This document shows, piece by piece, positions 19,015 through 26,025 of a stretch of DNA of 36,253 nucleotides. Under the pieces are notes generated by a model that searched no databases, had not been told where the DNA came from, and was given only the letters and a program-made list of their open reading frames with translations. The number at the start of each line of letters is the position of its first letter. Positions within the stretch are counted from its first letter, which is position 1. Both the position numbers and the translations under genes were made by a program. The stretch lies in the NCBI GenBank assembly GCA_024711125.1, contig JANJTM010000005.1:1-36253 (forward strand), read 5' to 3'. The stretch comes from Rhodothermales bacterium (GTDB lineage Bacteria > Bacteroidota > Rhodothermia > Rhodothermales > UBA10348).

Positions 19015-20229
19015 TCAGTGCGCTTGGGCGACCTCGAGCGCGGCGTCGTGTGCGTCCCGGTAATCGCGGATGGCCCGGAAGATGGCCGAAGCGATGTGAT
19101 CCCGGCCCTCCTCGGTCGTGAGATAGCGGGCCTCGGAGGGATTGGAGATGAATCCGATCTCGGTCAGAATGGCGGGCATGCCGGCGGACCAGAGCACGTA
19201 GAGGTTCCCTTCCTTCACCTTCCGGTCCTTGCGACCCGCGCGTTCCCGATACTGTTCCTGGATGCGGGAAGCCAGGTCCTGGCTCTGTCGGAGGTGCGCA
19301 CTCTGGGTGAGGCGCAGCCGGGCGAGTTGCGCGGCGTTGTATTGTTCGTAGTGCTCCCGGTCCTCCTCGAGGTCGATGACCCGGTTCTCGCGTTCGATGA
19401 CGTCCCGGGCGGCGTCGGTCTTGTGGGTCCCGAGGAAGAACGTTTCCGTTCCGCTCGCCGCCCGATCGGGAGCCGAGTTCGCGTGTATCGACACGAACAG
19501 CTCTCCACCCGCCTCGCGGGCGATGCGCCCGCGGTCCTTCAGCGGGATGAACCGGTCGTCGTCCCGGGTATAGGCCACGCGGAATCCGGCCCGCTCCAGG
19601 TAGACGCCCACGCGGCGGGCGATGTCGAGCACGAGGTCCTTCTCGCGCATGCGATTATACCCGATGGTGCCCGGATCCGTCCCGCCGTGGCCGGCGTCGA
19701 GGACGACCGTGTCAAGCTTCAGCTTTTCCAGGTCGTCCTCACGGGCCACGGCCGCCGTGTCGTCGCTCGAGTTCCCCGGCGGGTCCACGGTCGAGGCGGC
19801 GACGGAGAGAGCGGGCGTCGCGGGAGCCGGCACCGGCCCGACGTGCACGTAGACGAGAAGATCGCCGGCCTCCGTGCCGTCACGGTAGGCGTCGGCGGCG
19901 AGCACCTGCCCGGCGGCCGAGAGCTCGAACAGGACGCCGTCGTTCACGGCGCGGATCGCGCACCGGCCCAACGATTCGGGAGCGATGCACGTCGCGCCGG
20001 ACCGCAGGCTGGCCGGTCGGGCGGTAAGCCGGACCGTCGCCGATCGGGCATCCCGCTCCAACGCGAATTCGGTGACACGGCCCGAGAACGCGAGTCGGAT
20101 GACGGTGCCGGGAAGGCGTGACGAGGCGGTGAACGTCACGCGCTCGAGCCGAGGGCCTGCGCCGTGGCCGCGGCCCGAGGGAGCGGGACCGGACAGCAGG
20201 AGCAGGAGACCGACGAGCGCTGAAACCAT
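19015..20229 (-). CDS. N-acetylmuramoyl-L-alanine amidase (AmiC-type, Amidase_3)
   Basis: The chosen start gives 404 residues with a signal sequence MVSALVGLLLLLSGPAPSG; an ATG 48 bp upstream is a possible alternative. Residues about 28-130 form a beta domain resembling AMIN, which binds peptidoglycan or outer-membrane lipoproteins in this family. The Amidase_3 domain (about 174-395) has zinc ligands H181 (DAGHGGTDPG), E196 (MREKD) and H249 (SIHANSA), and catalytic E357 (LTEIGFISN). Between H249 and E357 an inserted helical region (about 275-340) could be the autoinhibitory helix seen in EnvC/NlpD-activated enzymes; that is inference. It cleaves the amide between N-acetylmuramic acid and L-alanine, typically for daughter-cell separation. 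Confidence 0.92.
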   Translation of the reverse strand: MVSALVGLLLLLSGPAPSGRGHGAGPRLERVTFTASSRLPGTVIRLAFSGRVTEFALERDARSATVRLTARPASLRSGATCIAPESLGRCAIRAVNDGVLFELSAAGQVLAADAYRDGTEAGDLLVYVHVGPVPAPATPALSVAASTVDPPGNSSDDTAAVAREDDLEKLKLDTVVLDAGHGGTDPGTIGYNRMREKDLVLDIARRVGVYLERAGFRVAYTRDDDRFIPLKDRGRIAREAGGELFVSIHANSAPDRAASGTETFFLGTHKTDAARDVIERENRVIDLEEDREHYEQYNAAQLARLRLTQSAHLRQSQDLASRIQEQYRERAGRKDRKVKEGNLYVLWSAGMPAILTEIGFISNPSEARYLTTEEGRDHIASAIFRAIRDYRDAHDAALEVAQAH

Positions 20230-20303
20230 GGGCTGGAGAACGGATGGCGGATGACCCGACCGGACATCAAAATACATGCCGGAGCGCCATCAACCGGCAG
20301 GGA

Positions 20304-20355
20304 CCCTCGCCAGGCACAGGCGAGGGGGCCGGGGGCGGACATGCCCCCGGCCCCC
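20304..20355 (-). terminator. Two overlapping GC-rich stem-loops upstream of the amidase gene
   Basis: Stem 1: CCCTCGCC (20304-20311) with GGCGAGGG (20319-20326). Stem 2: a perfect 13-bp pair at 20324-20336 and 20343-20355 around the loop GGACAT. The stems share three bases, so they compete. They lie just after the stop of the coiled-coil gene above and before the amidase. There is no T-run, so they may be a terminator, an mRNA-stabilising structure or a leader element. Confidence 0.5.
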
Positions 20356-20383
20356 GGCCGGCATTTCCGTGCTTGGGAAAGGC

Positions 20384-21169
20384 TTACCAGTCGAGCGCGT
20401 CCCGCTGCCCGAGCAGTTCGCGCTTGCGGCGCGAGATCACCTCGTCCCGGGAGGCGTCTCGCTGCGCGAGCCGACTGCGCAGTTCTTCGAGGCGTTTCGC
20501 CAGCTCTTCGGCATCCTTCCGGTCGGCTTGCTGTTTGCGTTCGAAGGCGTCGCGCAGCCTGGCGTCGAGTTCGGCCTCGAGCGCGGCCCGATCGGCGGCC
20601 TCGGCCCGGCGCACCTGCGCGGCCAGTTCGCGTATTTCGCGCTCGATGGCGCGCACCTCTTCGTTCCGTTCGAAACGGGCGATCGGGTCGTCACCCATCC
20701 AGAATCCGCCGCGGCGCACACCCCGCTCGACCTCTTCGCGGATGCGGTCGGCATCGAGGGCGAGATTGCCGCGCAGACGGACCATCTCGCGCTCCTGTTC
20801 GCCGAACTGCTCGCGAAGCCGTTCCATGTGCTCCCGCATCGGTTCGGCGAACACCCGGAACTCGGCCGAATCCGGGCGAATGCCGCGGAAGGTGAACGCC
20901 CGGGCCTCCGGGCCGCCGTCGAACCACGCCATCGTGCGTCCCCCCCGTCCCTTCCGCACGAAAACGGTCACTTCCTCCCCGTTTTCGTCCTCCAACTCGA
21001 TGCGGCCTTCCGGATCGACGGCACGTTCCGTGCCGTTGACGAATACCTTGCCGTTGCGGACTTCCACGGTGACTTTCTTCTCGGTTTCCTGCGCGGACGC
21101 CGACGGCGCGGCGCACGCAAGGACCAGCGCGGCCGCCAGGAGGCCGCGGGACCATCGGGATGCGTTCAT
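20384..21169 (-). CDS. Secreted coiled-coil protein, unknown function (second paralogue of ECF unit)
   Basis: The 261-residue protein has a signal peptide (SRGLLAAALVLACAAPSASAQ). A small beta-rich N-terminal part follows (KKVTVEVRNGKVFVNGTERAV), then long charged helices from about residue 105 to the end. The C-terminal stretch AFERKQQADRKDAEELAKRLEELRSRLAQRD with RKRELLG aligns well with the end of the next gene upstream, so the two look like tandem paralogues. It is the last gene of the sigma/anti-sigma unit. The extended helical form recalls periplasmic stress sensors or chaperones in general, but no family was recognised. Confidence 0.8.
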   Translation of the reverse strand: MNASRWSRGLLAAALVLACAAPSASAQETEKKVTVEVRNGKVFVNGTERAVDPEGRIELEDENGEEVTVFVRKGRGGRTMAWFDGGPEARAFTFRGIRPDSAEFRVFAEPMREHMERLREQFGEQEREMVRLRGNLALDADRIREEVERGVRRGGFWMGDDPIARFERNEEVRAIEREIRELAAQVRRAEAADRAALEAELDARLRDAFERKQQADRKDAEELAKRLEELRSRLAQRDASRDEVISRRKRELLGQRDALDW

Positions 21170-21196
21170 GACTTTTTCGGTTGGCTGTGTGTGGGA

Positions 21197-22078
21197 TCAG
21201 GGATTGGGCAGGGGTCGCCGGTTCAGGGGGCCCAGGAGGTCCTTCATGCGTCGGTCGATGATCCGGGCTCGGTTGGCCTCCCGCGCCGCGAGCTGGGCGC
21301 GCAGTTCGGAGAGCTGCAGCTCCAGTTGGCTGATCTCGTCGCGGCGATTCTGCTGCTTGAATTCGAACGCCTGTTCCAGGCTGGCCCTGAGGGACCGCTC
21401 GAGTTCGCCGCGGACGCGCGAATCCCGCTCGGCGCGAATCCTCGCTGCAAGGCGGCCCGAGGCGTTTTCCATTTCGATTTCCTGGAGCAGCCGGGAGTGC
21501 AGCCCGGCGTCGGCGGTCTGAAGGCGGTCGAGATAGGTCTTCATCTCGATCCGGGGGAAGGCGCGCAGCACGAGAGCGGCCTCTTCGGCCTCCTTGTGCA
21601 GCCGGCTGACCGTGAGTTCCCGTTCGCTTTCCCGGCCTTCGGACAGTTCGGCCCCGAGGCGCTCGAGATGGGCAGCCTTTGCGTCCAGGACGCGGGCAAA
21701 CGATCCGAACGTGCGCGAGGGTGATCCGGTGAGCCGGACCGACGCGGCCGAGGGCGCCTCCTCCGAGCGCAGGCCGGCTTCGGCCGGGTCCACGAAAACG
21801 ACGATGGATTCGATGCCCTCGGGCTCGACTTCCACGATGCGTCCGTCCCGCACTGCATAGGGGATGCCGGCGATGTAGAACCGGGCGTCCCCGCTGAAGC
21901 GGAACCGGGCGTGCTGACCCTCCGTGCGCAGGGTGGAGGGGTATTCGGCGGCGGTCAGGCGCCGGTCGTCGATGTAGACGGCGCCGTTTTCGATGCGCAC
22001 CGTCGTACCGGCCTGCTGCGCCGCCGAGGGTACGGCGAACGAGAGCAGCAGGGCGAGGTGAAGGATAGGCAGTCGCAT
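21197..22078 (-). CDS. Secreted coiled-coil protein, unknown function (first paralogue of ECF unit)
   Basis: The 293-residue protein has a signal peptide (MRLPILHLALLLSFAVPSAAQQ). A beta-rich domain of about 110 residues begins TTVRIENGAVYIDDRRL, matching the start of its neighbour's mature part. Long Glu/Arg helices follow, and the C-terminal block AFEFKQQNRRDEISQLELQLSELRAQLAARE with RRMKDLLG pairs residue by residue with the downstream paralogue. It starts 13 bp after the putative anti-sigma gene and ends 27 bp before the paralogue, so all are probably one mRNA. Function is unknown. Confidence 0.8.
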   Translation of the reverse strand: MRLPILHLALLLSFAVPSAAQQAGTTVRIENGAVYIDDRRLTAAEYPSTLRTEGQHARFRFSGDARFYIAGIPYAVRDGRIVEVEPEGIESIVVFVDPAEAGLRSEEAPSAASVRLTGSPSRTFGSFARVLDAKAAHLERLGAELSEGRESERELTVSRLHKEAEEAALVLRAFPRIEMKTYLDRLQTADAGLHSRLLQEIEMENASGRLAARIRAERDSRVRGELERSLRASLEQAFEFKQQNRRDEISQLELQLSELRAQLAAREANRARIIDRRMKDLLGPLNRRPLPNP

Positions 22079-22091
22079 GGAAGGGAAGCGT

Positions 22092-22757
22092 CTAGTAGCG
22101 CGGCCGTACGGTGCCGGCGGGAGTCAGGAGTCCGTCGCGTCCGGACGGGATGGCTTCGAGGGGAACGGCCGGCGAGTCCCACGCGTCGAGCGGGATCTCG
22201 CGCAGGGTCGCGATGCGTCGGGACAACAGGCGCACTTCGTCGCCCGTGTCCCAACCGGGCTCGTCTGCCGATTCGGATTCGGACGCCGCCGGCGTTGTCG
22301 GAGGAGCCGGGGGCAGATCCCCGAGCAGACCTTCCGGAGACTCCGGATCGGCGCGGAATGCGACTTCGGGTTCGGCGGGAACGGGGGCCTGGGCGACCCG
22401 ATCGACCGTGGCAGGGGCCAGTTCGGTGCGCCAGGGCCCGACGATGACGAGCAGGAGCAGGGATGCCGCGATCGCCAGCGTGGGGAGCCACGCACGGCGC
22501 AGGGAAACGAGCCGGACGGCGGGTCGGTCCCGGCGCATGCCTTCCGGGGCGGGGTGCAGCGCGCGGGCCACCAACCGGTCGACGACGGCCGGGTCCGGGC
22601 GGTGACGCACGGTACCCTGTTCCAGGCGGAACCGGGTTTCACCGAGCGCCTCGTACTCCCTGCGCAGTTCGGGGTCCTGGAGGAGGGCGCCCAGGGGCTC
22701 GAGCTCCTCGACGTCCTCGTCGTACAGGTGAGCGATCAGTTGTAGCCTTTTATCCAT
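22092..22757 (-). CDS. Putative anti-sigma factor, single-pass membrane protein
   Basis: The 221-residue protein has a cytosolic helical N-terminus (MDKRLQLIAHLYDEDVEELEPLG, about 1-85), one transmembrane helix (about 89-109), and a Pro/Glu/Ser-rich periplasmic part ending in an ordered segment. Its ATG overlaps the last codons of the sigma gene by 8 bp, the usual arrangement for a cognate anti-sigma. There are no cysteines, so it is not the zinc-binding HxxxCxxC class; the N-terminal helices would have to bind the sigma factor in another way. The role is inferred from position and topology. Confidence 0.75.
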   Translation of the reverse strand: MDKRLQLIAHLYDEDVEELEPLGALLQDPELRREYEALGETRFRLEQGTVRHRPDPAVVDRLVARALHPAPEGMRRDRPAVRLVSLRRAWLPTLAIAASLLLLVIVGPWRTELAPATVDRVAQAPVPAEPEVAFRADPESPEGLLGDLPPAPPTTPAASESESADEPGWDTGDEVRLLSRRIATLREIPLDAWDSPAVPLEAIPSGRDGLLTPAGTVRPRY

Positions 22758-23427
22758 GAAATCCGGAGCCTGTCAGGTCGGCCTGGGGCGTCTGCATCGC
22801 CTTGCGAAGGTTGATCAAAGCGTACCGCATGCGTCCGAGCGCCGTATTGATCGACACGCCGGTCAGGTCGGCGATCTCCCGGAACGTCATCTCGGCTTCG
22901 TGACGCAGCAGGACCACTTCGCGCTGTTCGGGCGGAAGCCGGTCGATGCATGCACGCAGCGTTTCGCGTAGATCGGTGTCCTGCATGGCCACGTCGGCCG
23001 AAGGGGCATCGTCGGTGATCTGTTCCCAGAAGGACGCCGTGTCCTCGTCGGCCGTGCCTTCCACGTCCTGCCAGCGTTTCCTCAGGCGAAGGTGGTCGAG
23101 CGCGGCGTTGCGAGCGATGCGCAGGGCCCACCCGAGGAACTTGCCCTGGTCGTTGTACCCGGCTCGTTCGCTGCGGAGGGCCGACAGCACACGAAGGAAC
23201 GTCTCCTGGAAGAGGTCGTCGGCCACGGTCCGATCCCGTACCATGCCCAGCAGATAGCCGTACACCCGGTCCTGGTGGCGTTCCACCAGCGTACGCAGCG
23301 CAAGCTCGTCGCTTCGCTCGACGTACGCCGCGACGAGAGCCTCGTCGGTCGCCTGGATGGTGCCCGCGCTTTGCAAGAAGCCGTGTTCGGGGATCGTGTG
23401 GCTTCGGTCCTCGCCCATGTAACGCAC
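22750..23427 (-). CDS. ECF-type RNA polymerase sigma factor
   Basis: The 225-residue protein has sigma region 2 at about 28-115 (ALRTLVERHQDRVYGYLLGMV, ADDLFQETFLRVL, GWALRIARNAALDHLR). An acidic linker follows, then region 4 at about 160-212 (LPPEQREVVLLRHEAEMTFREIADLTGVS, INTALGRMRYALINLRK), which recognises the -35 element. Length and lack of region 1 and 3 fit the extracytoplasmic-function group. MGEDRSH three codons in is an alternative start. It heads a unit with a putative anti-sigma factor and two secreted proteins, and lies below the terminator of the lytic transglycosylase gene, so it should have its own promoter. Confidence 0.94.
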   Translation of the reverse strand: MRYMGEDRSHTIPEHGFLQSAGTIQATDEALVAAYVERSDELALRTLVERHQDRVYGYLLGMVRDRTVADDLFQETFLRVLSALRSERAGYNDQGKFLGWALRIARNAALDHLRLRKRWQDVEGTADEDTASFWEQITDDAPSADVAMQDTDLRETLRACIDRLPPEQREVVLLRHEAEMTFREIADLTGVSINTALGRMRYALINLRKAMQTPQADLTGSGFHG

Positions 23428-23499
23428 CGACGAAGCCGATTATTGTGCGGACGGAGGAACGGGAATTTCGTTGCGGGGAGCGCCCGTCGGCATCAAGCG

Positions 23500-23614: not shown

Positions 23615-25918
23615 TCAGCGCGCGATGCGCAGCTCGTCGCCCGGGTTGATGCGCGACGAAGAGAGCCCGTTCCACGCCTTGATCTGGTCGACCTTCACCC
23701 CGTATCGGCGCGCGATCTCGATGAGCGTGTCGCCGCGAACCACGGTGTGGGTACGCGAGCCGCCGTCTCCGGTCGAACCCGGGTAGATCGTCAGGCGCTG
23801 GCCCGGGCGGATGGACGATCCGCGCAGGTTGTTCCACTGGCGTAGCTGGTCGACCGTGACGCCGTTGGCGCGAGCGAGGTCATACAGCGTATCGCCGCGC
23901 TTGACCCGGTACGTGACGCGCTCGGGAGCGGGCGCAACGGCCGGCGCGGCGGCCGCGGCGGGCTCCTGGGCGCCGTCCAGGTACAGCTTCAAGCGCGCGC
24001 CGGCCTTGATCGACGAGCCGCGCATGCCGTTCCAGCGGCGAAGGTCCTCCACCGACACGCCGTACTTGCGCGCGATATCGTTCAGCGTATCCCCGCGCCG
24101 AATCGTGTAGTCGACGACGGTGCCGGCCGAGGGGCGGCTTTCGGGGGTCGGCGACGCTGCCGGCGCCGCATCCGCAGGGAACGTCTCCGGTGCGACGGTC
24201 TCGGTCACGACATCGCCGGATCCGGTCTGCGCCGGAACGTCGGTCGAGGGTTCGACACCCGGCGTGGCACGCAGCGAGGCCGTGGTGACCGGGATGCGGG
24301 GCGAGGGAGAATTGTCGACGACGAGGTCGCCGACGAAGGGCTCGGACGGGGCGACAGGGCGCAACGCGAGCGTCCCGTACTGCACCTTCACCGGTTCGAC
24401 CCGAGCCGCAGGGTCCCGGGTCGGCGCCGGCGCGGCCTCGACGACCTGGGTCTCGTCGAACGGGACCTGGAGGACCTGTCCGATGCGCAGGCGGTCAGAC
24501 TTCAGCCCGTTCTCCCTTTTCAGCTCGGCGACGCTGGTGTCGTACTTCTGCGCGATGCGACCGAGGGTATCGCCCTTCCTGACGACGTATTCGTCGGGCG
24601 GCACGAAGGACTCGGGCGGAAGCGAGGCGTACGTCTCGACGAAAGCGGCCGAGCTGCCGATGGGAAGGCGCAGCGGGTATCCGTCCCGCGTGCGCGGCAC
24701 GAATCCGCGGTGGAGCGACGGATTCAGGAACTCGAGCGTGGCCTTATCCACACCGGCGTACTGCGCGACCTTGTCGAGCGAGATGGCCCCGTGGACGGGC
24801 ACGACCTCGTATTCGTACACCGGCGCCACCTCGTCGGTCGAAAGACCGTACGCCGACGGGTTGGACAACATGAGCGCGGTGGCGATGAACTGGGGCACGT
24901 ACCCGCGGGTCTCGCGCGGAAGGAACTCGTACATGTCCCAATACGAGGGATTCTCGTGGCCCTTGCGTTGCGCCGAGGCGATGGCGCGCTTGATGCACCG
25001 CGGGCTGCAGTTGTACCCCGCCAACGCCACGTGCCAGTCGTTGTTGTACTGGGCGTAAAGGTCCTTGAGGTGCCTTGCGGCGGCACGGGTCGCCTTCTCG
25101 GGGTCCATGCGATCGTCCACCCAGCGGTCCACCTTGAGTCCGTACGCGCCGCCGGTCGCCGCGATGAACTGCCACATGCCGACGGCCTTCGCGCGGCTCT
25201 TCACCGACGGGCGCAGGCCGCTCTCGATCATCGCCAGGTATTTCAGCTCGTCGGGCACTCCCTCTTCCGCGAAGATCTTCTCGATCATGGGGAAGTACGT
25301 GTGGGCCCGGGTGAGCCAGTTCTTCAGCGTGTTGGGCTTGCTGCGAAGCCAGTCCATCGTGGAGGTGACCGTCCGGTTGACGGTCATGGGCACGGTAGCC
25401 GTGATCGGCTCCACCGCGACCTCGCTGGCGCCGAGCGGATTCTCCAGCTCCACGAGCAGGCCCGCCAGTTCGTCCCGCACGGCGAAGACCTCGTCGTAGA
25501 ACGAAGATTCCGGAAGCGCCTCTCCGTAGAAGGTCTCGTACGAGGCCAGGATGTCGGAATGGACGGCGGCGAAGCGCGCGTCAGACCGGGCGTCCGGCTC
25601 GCGTACGAGGAACGCGAGTTCCGACATCGCTTCCGAGAGCAGGTCGGCGACGGCTTCGTCGTCGTTCGCGGCGAGGGCGCCGTCCAGCTGGCCGCTCAGT
25701 TCCTCGAGGTGCGAGATCCACTCGCGCACGTCGGCCCGGTGGGCTTCGTCGCTTCCGTCGAACGACCGGCGGAGACGGGGGAAGCCGGTCCGGGGCAACT
25801 CCGAGGGTGGCAGTACGCGCACGGGTGCGGACGGAGGGGCGACCTGGGCGGCCGACGGCGCGGCGCAGGCCAGGGTCAGGAGGAGTGCGGCGAGAACGGC
25901 GGTCGCGTGCGGGCGCAT
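23615..25918 (-). CDS. mltD: MltD-like membrane-bound lytic transglycosylase with four LysM domains
   Basis: The ATG giving MRPHATAVLAALLLTLACAAPSAAQ was chosen for its signal peptide, giving 767 residues. A helical N-terminal region (about 55-200) precedes the GH23 transglycosylase domain at about 205-350. The catalytic glutamate is E232 in AMIESGL, followed by GMWQFIAATGGAYGL and ALAGYNCSP. Four LysM peptidoglycan-binding domains lie at 443-486, 603-646, 669-712 and 723-767, each with a (K/R)GDTL core. The linker at 490-600 is Pro/Ala/Thr-rich. It cleaves glycan strands to 1,6-anhydro-muropeptides. SLAC at 15-18 is followed by Ala and is not a clear lipobox. A well-formed terminator follows, and a promoter candidate lies upstream. 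Confidence 0.95.
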   Translation of the reverse strand: MRPHATAVLAALLLTLACAAPSAAQVAPPSAPVRVLPPSELPRTGFPRLRRSFDGSDEAHRADVREWISHLEELSGQLDGALAANDDEAVADLLSEAMSELAFLVREPDARSDARFAAVHSDILASYETFYGEALPESSFYDEVFAVRDELAGLLVELENPLGASEVAVEPITATVPMTVNRTVTSTMDWLRSKPNTLKNWLTRAHTYFPMIEKIFAEEGVPDELKYLAMIESGLRPSVKSRAKAVGMWQFIAATGGAYGLKVDRWVDDRMDPEKATRAAARHLKDLYAQYNNDWHVALAGYNCSPRCIKRAIASAQRKGHENPSYWDMYEFLPRETRGYVPQFIATALMLSNPSAYGLSTDEVAPVYEYEVVPVHGAISLDKVAQYAGVDKATLEFLNPSLHRGFVPRTRDGYPLRLPIGSSAAFVETYASLPPESFVPPDEYVVRKGDTLGRIAQKYDTSVAELKRENGLKSDRLRIGQVLQVPFDETQVVEAAPAPTRDPAARVEPVKVQYGTLALRPVAPSEPFVGDLVVDNSPSPRIPVTTASLRATPGVEPSTDVPAQTGSGDVVTETVAPETFPADAAPAASPTPESRPSAGTVVDYTIRRGDTLNDIARKYGVSVEDLRRWNGMRGSSIKAGARLKLYLDGAQEPAAAAAPAVAPAPERVTYRVKRGDTLYDLARANGVTVDQLRQWNNLRGSSIRPGQRLTIYPGSTGDGGSRTHTVVRGDTLIEIARRYGVKVDQIKAWNGLSSSRINPGDELRIAR

Positions 25919-25994
25919 GGGTGCTCCGAAGCCTGGCTGGCGCGGAAAGTGGGATTCCGGGACCTGAAGTAGTTTCTCAACAGGCGACCCTATC

Positions 25995-26025
25995 CGAATA
26001 TACACGGCAGGGTTGAGTCGAGCAA
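25995..26025 (-). promoter_or_regulatory. Promoter candidate TTG-N20-TATATTCG for the lytic transglycosylase
   Basis: On the minus strand TTG (26025-26023) is followed after 20 bp by TATATTCG (26002-25995). Spacing and bases are close to the Bacteroidota consensus TTG-N19-TAnnTTTG, with one C for T. Transcription would start near 25988, about 70 nt before the ATG. It is the most complete promoter in the window. Confidence 0.55.

Follow-up and report, generated by a model that had tools for sequence, protein, structure and literature searches.

Introduction

The sigma-E response of Escherichia coli is characterised by BamA, SurA, DegP-type proteases and autoregulation. The circuit that controls this response (RpoE-RseA-RseB-RseC and DegS-RseP) has been reviewed (PMC8103513). 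In the Bacteroidota, regulation by extracytoplasmic function (ECF) sigma factors is represented by Flavobacterium SM6 and Porphyromonas SigP; SM6 promoters carry a CGT -10 box and its targets include an ECF/anti-sigma pair (PMC9723704, PMC4800418). How outer-membrane assembly is monitored in this phylum, beyond the gut and flavobacterial models, is largely unknown. Here we describe a four-gene locus of a Rhodothermales bacterium, located on a stretch of 36,253 nucleotides (nt) of contig JANJTM010000005.1 (the window, to which coordinates refer), that encodes an ECF sigma factor, a putative anti-sigma factor and two coiled-coil proteins, cc1 and cc2. The locus is probably a single autoregulated operon for a sigma-E-like outer-membrane-assembly stress system, non-orthologous to the proteobacterial RpoE/RseA/RseB. 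Searches of the literature that was available revealed no description of a comparable system for this lineage.

Like the E. coli RpoE system, the locus combines an ECF sigma factor, a single-pass anti-sigma factor and secreted partners in one predicted autoregulated operon, its predicted targets include bamA, surA and htrA/degP, and RseP is present in the genome. Unlike in E. coli, the sigma factor does not reach the RpoE equivalog TIGR02939 (60.0 bits, cut-off 236), neither the anti-sigma factor matches RseA nor cc1 or cc2 RseB in searches of Pfam and NCBIfam, the promoter is CAATAAT-N14-CGTT, the coiled-coil partners fall outside known families and the host belongs to the Bacteroidota. The Cupriavidus CnrY-CnrX-CnrH system and the CpxP/Spy-type sensors are similar in that an ECF sigma factor, a membrane anti-sigma factor and a helical periplasmic protein are encoded together, and CnrH is a distant relative of the sigma factor described here; they differ in that cc1 and cc2 have no Pfam match to the OmpH/Skp, LTXXQ/Spy, CpxP or metal-sensor (CnrX-type) models and in that the predicted regulon is that of outer-membrane assembly. 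The anti-sigma factor resembles the class I anti-sigma factors that lack the zinc motif (RskA and RseA type; PMC7406223) in its small N-terminal domain, one transmembrane segment and absence of Hx3Cx2C, but has its own conserved periplasmic segment (WD...RRI...PLE) and no Pfam model. ECF regulation in the Bacteroidota is shared with SM6 and SigP, the regulons of which are centred on type IX secretion (PMC9723704, PMC4800418) rather than on bamA and outer-membrane assembly.

The sigma promoter and its predicted targets

Of the 36 complete loci of the order (loci not cut by a contig end, from about 15 families), 34 carry the element RCAATAAT-N13/14-CGTT upstream of the sigma gene. It recurs, as ACAATAAA-N14-CGTTTAC, ahead of the sigma gene in 11/13 more distant loci, which come from two families outside the class (in another class of the Bacteroidota) and two genomes of the same class. 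A CGT-containing -10 box is typical of ECF promoters (cf. PMC9723704), and the motif has a single match within the 36 kb of the window, where 0.06 are expected. Because the motif is consistently located ahead of the sigma gene, we infer, following the logic of autoregulation, that this sigma factor reads it.

Promoter scans were done with exact patterns, using shuffles and the reversed pattern as controls, and for bamA the upstream regions of all orthologues found were searched without prior picking of sites. Among 28 genomes of the order, 22 have the motif upstream of bamA; shuffles lead to an expectation of 0.01 and the reversed pattern gave 0. The background of four non-sigma matches per 914 kb of strand around the modules corresponds to about 0.04 per 28 upstream regions. 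The window's own genome is among the 22, with the motif 125 nt before the bamA start; rseP lies immediately before bamA and the sigma promoter is between them. The motif was also detected upstream of surA (9/30 genomes) and of htrA, encoding a Do-family protease (7/30). What was looked for as a functional signature, a sigma promoter at the system's own gene and at bamA accompanied by chaperone (surA) and protease (htrA) genes, is thus what was found, and a sigma-E-like function of the system is highly likely. The initial annotation had proposed a candidate envelope-stress module from the four genes, and these sites lend that proposal independent support.

In the window's genome the pattern CAATAW-N14/15-CGTT has 10 sites compared with one for the reversed pattern, with similar ratios in other relatives. 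Downstream of these sites lie, among others, the sigma gene, bamA and the genes for a GLPGLI and a TonB-like protein, a vWA lipoprotein, an M28 peptidase and a small transmembrane/coil protein. The identities of the targets were established with TIGR03303 for BamA (331 bits, cut-off 297), TIGR02037 for the Do protease (445 bits, cut-off 416) and TIGR01200 for GLPGLI (144 bits, cut-off 50), while SurA was recognised by Pfam SurA_N plus Rotamase and the TonB-like protein by TonB_C. The genome also encodes the site-2 protease RseP (257 bits, cut-off 148) and several HtrA-type PDZ proteases. A small single-span protein with a coiled tail and no Pfam family follows the sigma promoter in several genera (L107:909-1499, L118, L123, L227 and L248) and is a conserved predicted target.

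Organisation and conservation of the locus

The four genes are consecutive on the minus strand (Table 1), and the open reading frame coordinates agree with the spacing of -8, 13 and 27 bp given in the initial annotation. The conserved promoter before the sigma gene and the stem-loops after cc2, which have no T run and are likely the end of the operon, lead us to read the four genes as one autoregulated operon.

Table 1 Features of the predicted sigma operon and of the second, TACGAA element.
Feature	Position or locus	Strand	Remarks
ECF sigma factor gene	22750..23427	-	225 aa (amino acids) from GTG 23427; probable start TTG 23376 gives 208 aa
Anti-sigma gene	22092..22757	-	221 aa; 8-bp overlap with sigma gene
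cc1	21197..22078	-	293 aa; 13-bp gap after anti-sigma gene; partner gene in every complete locus
cc2	20384..21169	-	261 aa; 27-bp gap after cc1; C-terminal -DW; paralogue of cc1
-35 element GCACAATAAT of the predicted ECF promoter	23439..23448	-	motif in 34/36 complete loci of the order
CGTT -10 box of this predicted promoter	23421..23424	-	spacing AATA-N16-CGTT
Two strong G+C-rich stem-loops directly 3' of the cc2 stop	20275..20383	-	-67.4 kcal/mol, z -3.6 against shuffles
TACGAA element upstream of Do-family protease gene	L192-L196, L200, L202, L203, L205-L208, L211-L214
TACGAA element upstream of bamA	L184, L185

Each of the 36 complete loci of the order shows the arrangement sigma, anti-sigma, cc1 on a single strand, which indicates that the cc paralogues are sigma-linked and not scattered. 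cc2 is present in addition in 27 of these loci, and one has a third copy; some families without cc2 retain the sigma factor, the anti-sigma factor and cc1. In the 13 distant loci a single cc gene always directly follows the genes for an ECF sigma factor and a one-span anti-sigma factor. That the paralogues might usually lie away from sigma factors had been named at the outset as the observation that would count against the module; they were instead found in an ECF-sigma operon in 36/36 and 13/13 loci. Within the 296 genomes sampled from the phylum Bacteroidota the cc1 profile matches every member of the order, and among 100 relatives there are matches to cc2 in 74 and to the anti-sigma factor in 73. 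A scan of genome contigs found one locus only, in a metagenome-assembled genome labelled Bacteroidetes.

A small number of proteins related to the coil or to the beta part are encoded away from a sigma gene (L096, L097 and L098). In genomes of family f4 (L096, L097) an exported protein of 416-464 aa has a cc-like C-terminal helix and no sigma gene nearby, and at L098 and L099 (genomes G050 and G071) a tandemly expanded family of exported proteins of about 410 aa, distant from sigma genes, has an N-terminus like the beta part of cc1.

The sigma and anti-sigma factors

The sigma factor matches PF04542 (Sigma70_r2; 60.5 bits, cut-off 24), PF08281 (r4_2; 46.5 bits, cut-off 25.7) and TIGR02937 (115.2 bits, cut-off 42.9). 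It has regions 2 and 4 only, each above the curated cut-off, as in the ECF (sigma-70 group 4) sigma factors, and the nearest solved structures are the Pseudomonas-type sigma-H (6in7), SigW and RpoE. The gene as originally drawn stands as an open reading frame, but its GTG start at 23427 does not, as this codon straddles the -10 box of the promoter kept in the relatives and translation must start further in. The true start is probably TTG 23376 or ATG 23418; the former is the most likely, and the protein read from it is in register with relatives that start MHPSDE.L.

The anti-sigma factor has a single strongly hydrophobic stretch at about residues 89-107. Alignment of its orthologues revealed a conserved N-terminal block (M-D-K-x-L ... 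L-Y-G-E ... R-P) and, in the periplasmic segment, the conserved residues WD...hRRI...PLE.LP. No Pfam model matches, and the match to the NCBIfam model NF052375 ('antisigma'; E 7.6e-8) is weak and below the cut-off. As initially noted, the zinc motif is missing: the protein has no cysteine, and Hx3Cx2C, the motif of the zinc-associated anti-sigma (ZAS) factors, was found in 0/37 anti-sigma factors of the order. Its absence is in itself ordinary, since about half of the membrane-bound class I anti-sigma factors are without it (PMC7406223). Among the anti-sigma factors of the distant class 5/11 carry Hx3Cx2C and 6/11 do not, which indicates that the module does not require the zinc motif. Profile-profile comparison of the anti-sigma factors of the order with those of the distant class detected no similarity, so that derivation of the cysteine-free protein from a zinc form is unsupported.

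The coiled-coil proteins

cc1 and cc2 each begin with a hydrophobic signal-like stretch, followed by a small N-terminal beta region and long C-terminal helices. They share the motif V-x-I/V-x-N-G-x-V-F/Y and, in pairwise comparison, a C-terminal helix with 48% identity over 54 aa (E 6e-10). The common beta start and helix described initially are therefore borne out, and the two proteins are to be regarded as true paralogues. In the tree of the C-terminal part one supported branch divides cc1 from cc2, which points to one duplication that is older than the radiation of the order. Neither protein has a match above cut-off in Pfam or NCBIfam, the sub-threshold matches being unrelated, and a sequence search of the PDB with the cc1 profile gave nothing credible. 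This agrees with the first impression that they fit no known family; judged by sequence, cc1 and cc2 represent a new family of exported coiled-coil proteins outside those described.

The C-terminal residue of cc2 is Trp in 32/32 complete copies, mostly as -DW, and in the distant class W or W-D/E forms the end of 10/11 single-copy cc proteins. In two genera (L037:2258 and L043:4959) a TACGAA-type element is located within the operon, no more than 100 nt ahead of cc1, and the cc genes may have a second promoter.

Proposed mechanism and alternative explanations

cc1 and cc2 could be periplasmic partners of the anti-sigma factor, RseB-like in role, an assignment by analogy that we make tentatively. 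In the absence of stress, the sigma factor would be retained at the inner membrane by the anti-sigma factor. In the periplasm cc1, together with cc2, would act as co-inhibitor and sensor by binding, most likely to the conserved periplasmic helix of the anti-sigma factor. This role is favoured because the cc genes never leave the anti-sigma gene. When the assembly of outer-membrane proteins fails, cc1/cc2 would be drawn off, or a PDZ ligand exposed, and an HtrA protease followed by RseP would cleave the anti-sigma factor in two steps. The freed sigma factor would then drive transcription of the operon itself, of bamA and, depending on the lineage, of other envelope genes (surA, htrA and those for TonB-like and GLPGLI proteins), and newly made anti-sigma factor and cc protein would reset the switch. 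cc1 and cc2 would constitute a type of partner new to such switches, and the system would demonstrate that BamA came under sigma-E-like control through unrelated regulatory proteins. The defined sigma factor, the promoter sequence and the bamA-centred regulon make the question directly testable.

Several observations weigh against this scheme. AlphaFold models of cc1 and cc2, built from four sequences, are confident in the C-terminal helix only and low elsewhere (pLDDT 58 and 66), Foldseek found no fold match for them in the PDB, and the contact of cc1/cc2 with the anti-sigma factor is putative. Another ECF sigma factor could share the motif. In the distant class bamA directly follows uppS and has no motif upstream, and the bamA link is therefore taken to hold within the order only. 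A different element, TACGAA-N14/15-CGTT, occurs upstream of htrA in 16/30 genomes and upstream of bamA in two (Table 1); its presence before these 16 further protease loci suggests a second ECF sigma factor with an overlapping envelope programme.

The alternative that survives best is that cc1 and cc2 are effectors, chaperone-like or scaffold proteins of the periplasm (Skp- or Spy-like in role) made in quantity to protect outer-membrane proteins and merely sharing the operon. They are predicted to be transcribed with the sigma factor from its stress promoter, long secreted helices would suit a holdase, the C-terminal Trp is like the aromatic end of outer-membrane proteins, and the ECF-type promoter before cc1 in two genera would allow the cc genes to be switched apart from the sigma gene. 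However, cc1 adjoins the anti-sigma gene in every complete locus and is never alone, which is commoner for regulators than for effectors, and the OmpH/Skp, LTXXQ/Spy and CpxP models found no match; we consider an effector role unlikely, if less so than the explanations that follow.

Some ECF systems with helical periplasmic partners, such as CnrYXH, sense metals. The sigma factor might likewise answer another envelope signal (metal, cell-wall damage or osmotic stress), with bamA just one co-regulated housekeeping target, and the neighbours of the operon are indeed cell-wall enzymes (LysM/SLT transglycosylase and Amidase_3). These neighbouring genes, however, have no motif of their own in the window, no metal-sensor family matches, and bamA, with surA and htrA, is the most widely shared target found, which makes a different signal improbable.

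Returning to cc1 and cc2 as partners of the anti-sigma factor, a more specific version, to which we give little credence, is that they are a new periplasmic sensor family that clamps the anti-sigma factor and reads the state of BamA or of a PDZ protease through the C-terminal Trp, which resembles that of outer-membrane proteins, a route that would have evolved independently of DegS/RseB. That cc2 is instead an activating ligand, an outer-membrane protein mimic whose Trp end docks onto the PDZ domain of an HtrA/DegS-like protease (or onto BamA) and starts cleavage of the anti-sigma factor once unoccupied, would fit the constancy of that end, the presence of HtrA and RseP homologues and the activation of DegS by C-terminal peptides of outer-membrane proteins (PMC8103513), but is very unlikely, given that some families lack cc2 but retain the other genes, with a cc1 that is not always Trp-ended, and that -DW, unlike YxF, has an acidic penultimate residue.

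Other motif copies and flanking genes

Copies of CAATAA-CGTT are conserved beside DnaA-box-like repeats (TTATCAACA and TTTTTGTCCACA) at L137-L141, L144-L149 and L154, with no clear downstream gene. They perhaps mark a replication-origin region or are a coincidence, and the matches by the repeats at L137-L149 were not counted as targets. In the window the operon is flanked on the same strand by the LysM/SLT transglycosylase gene upstream (23615-26005) and the Amidase_3 gene downstream (19015-20277), and in several loci of the same family a LysM-like coding sequence likewise stops immediately before the sigma gene.

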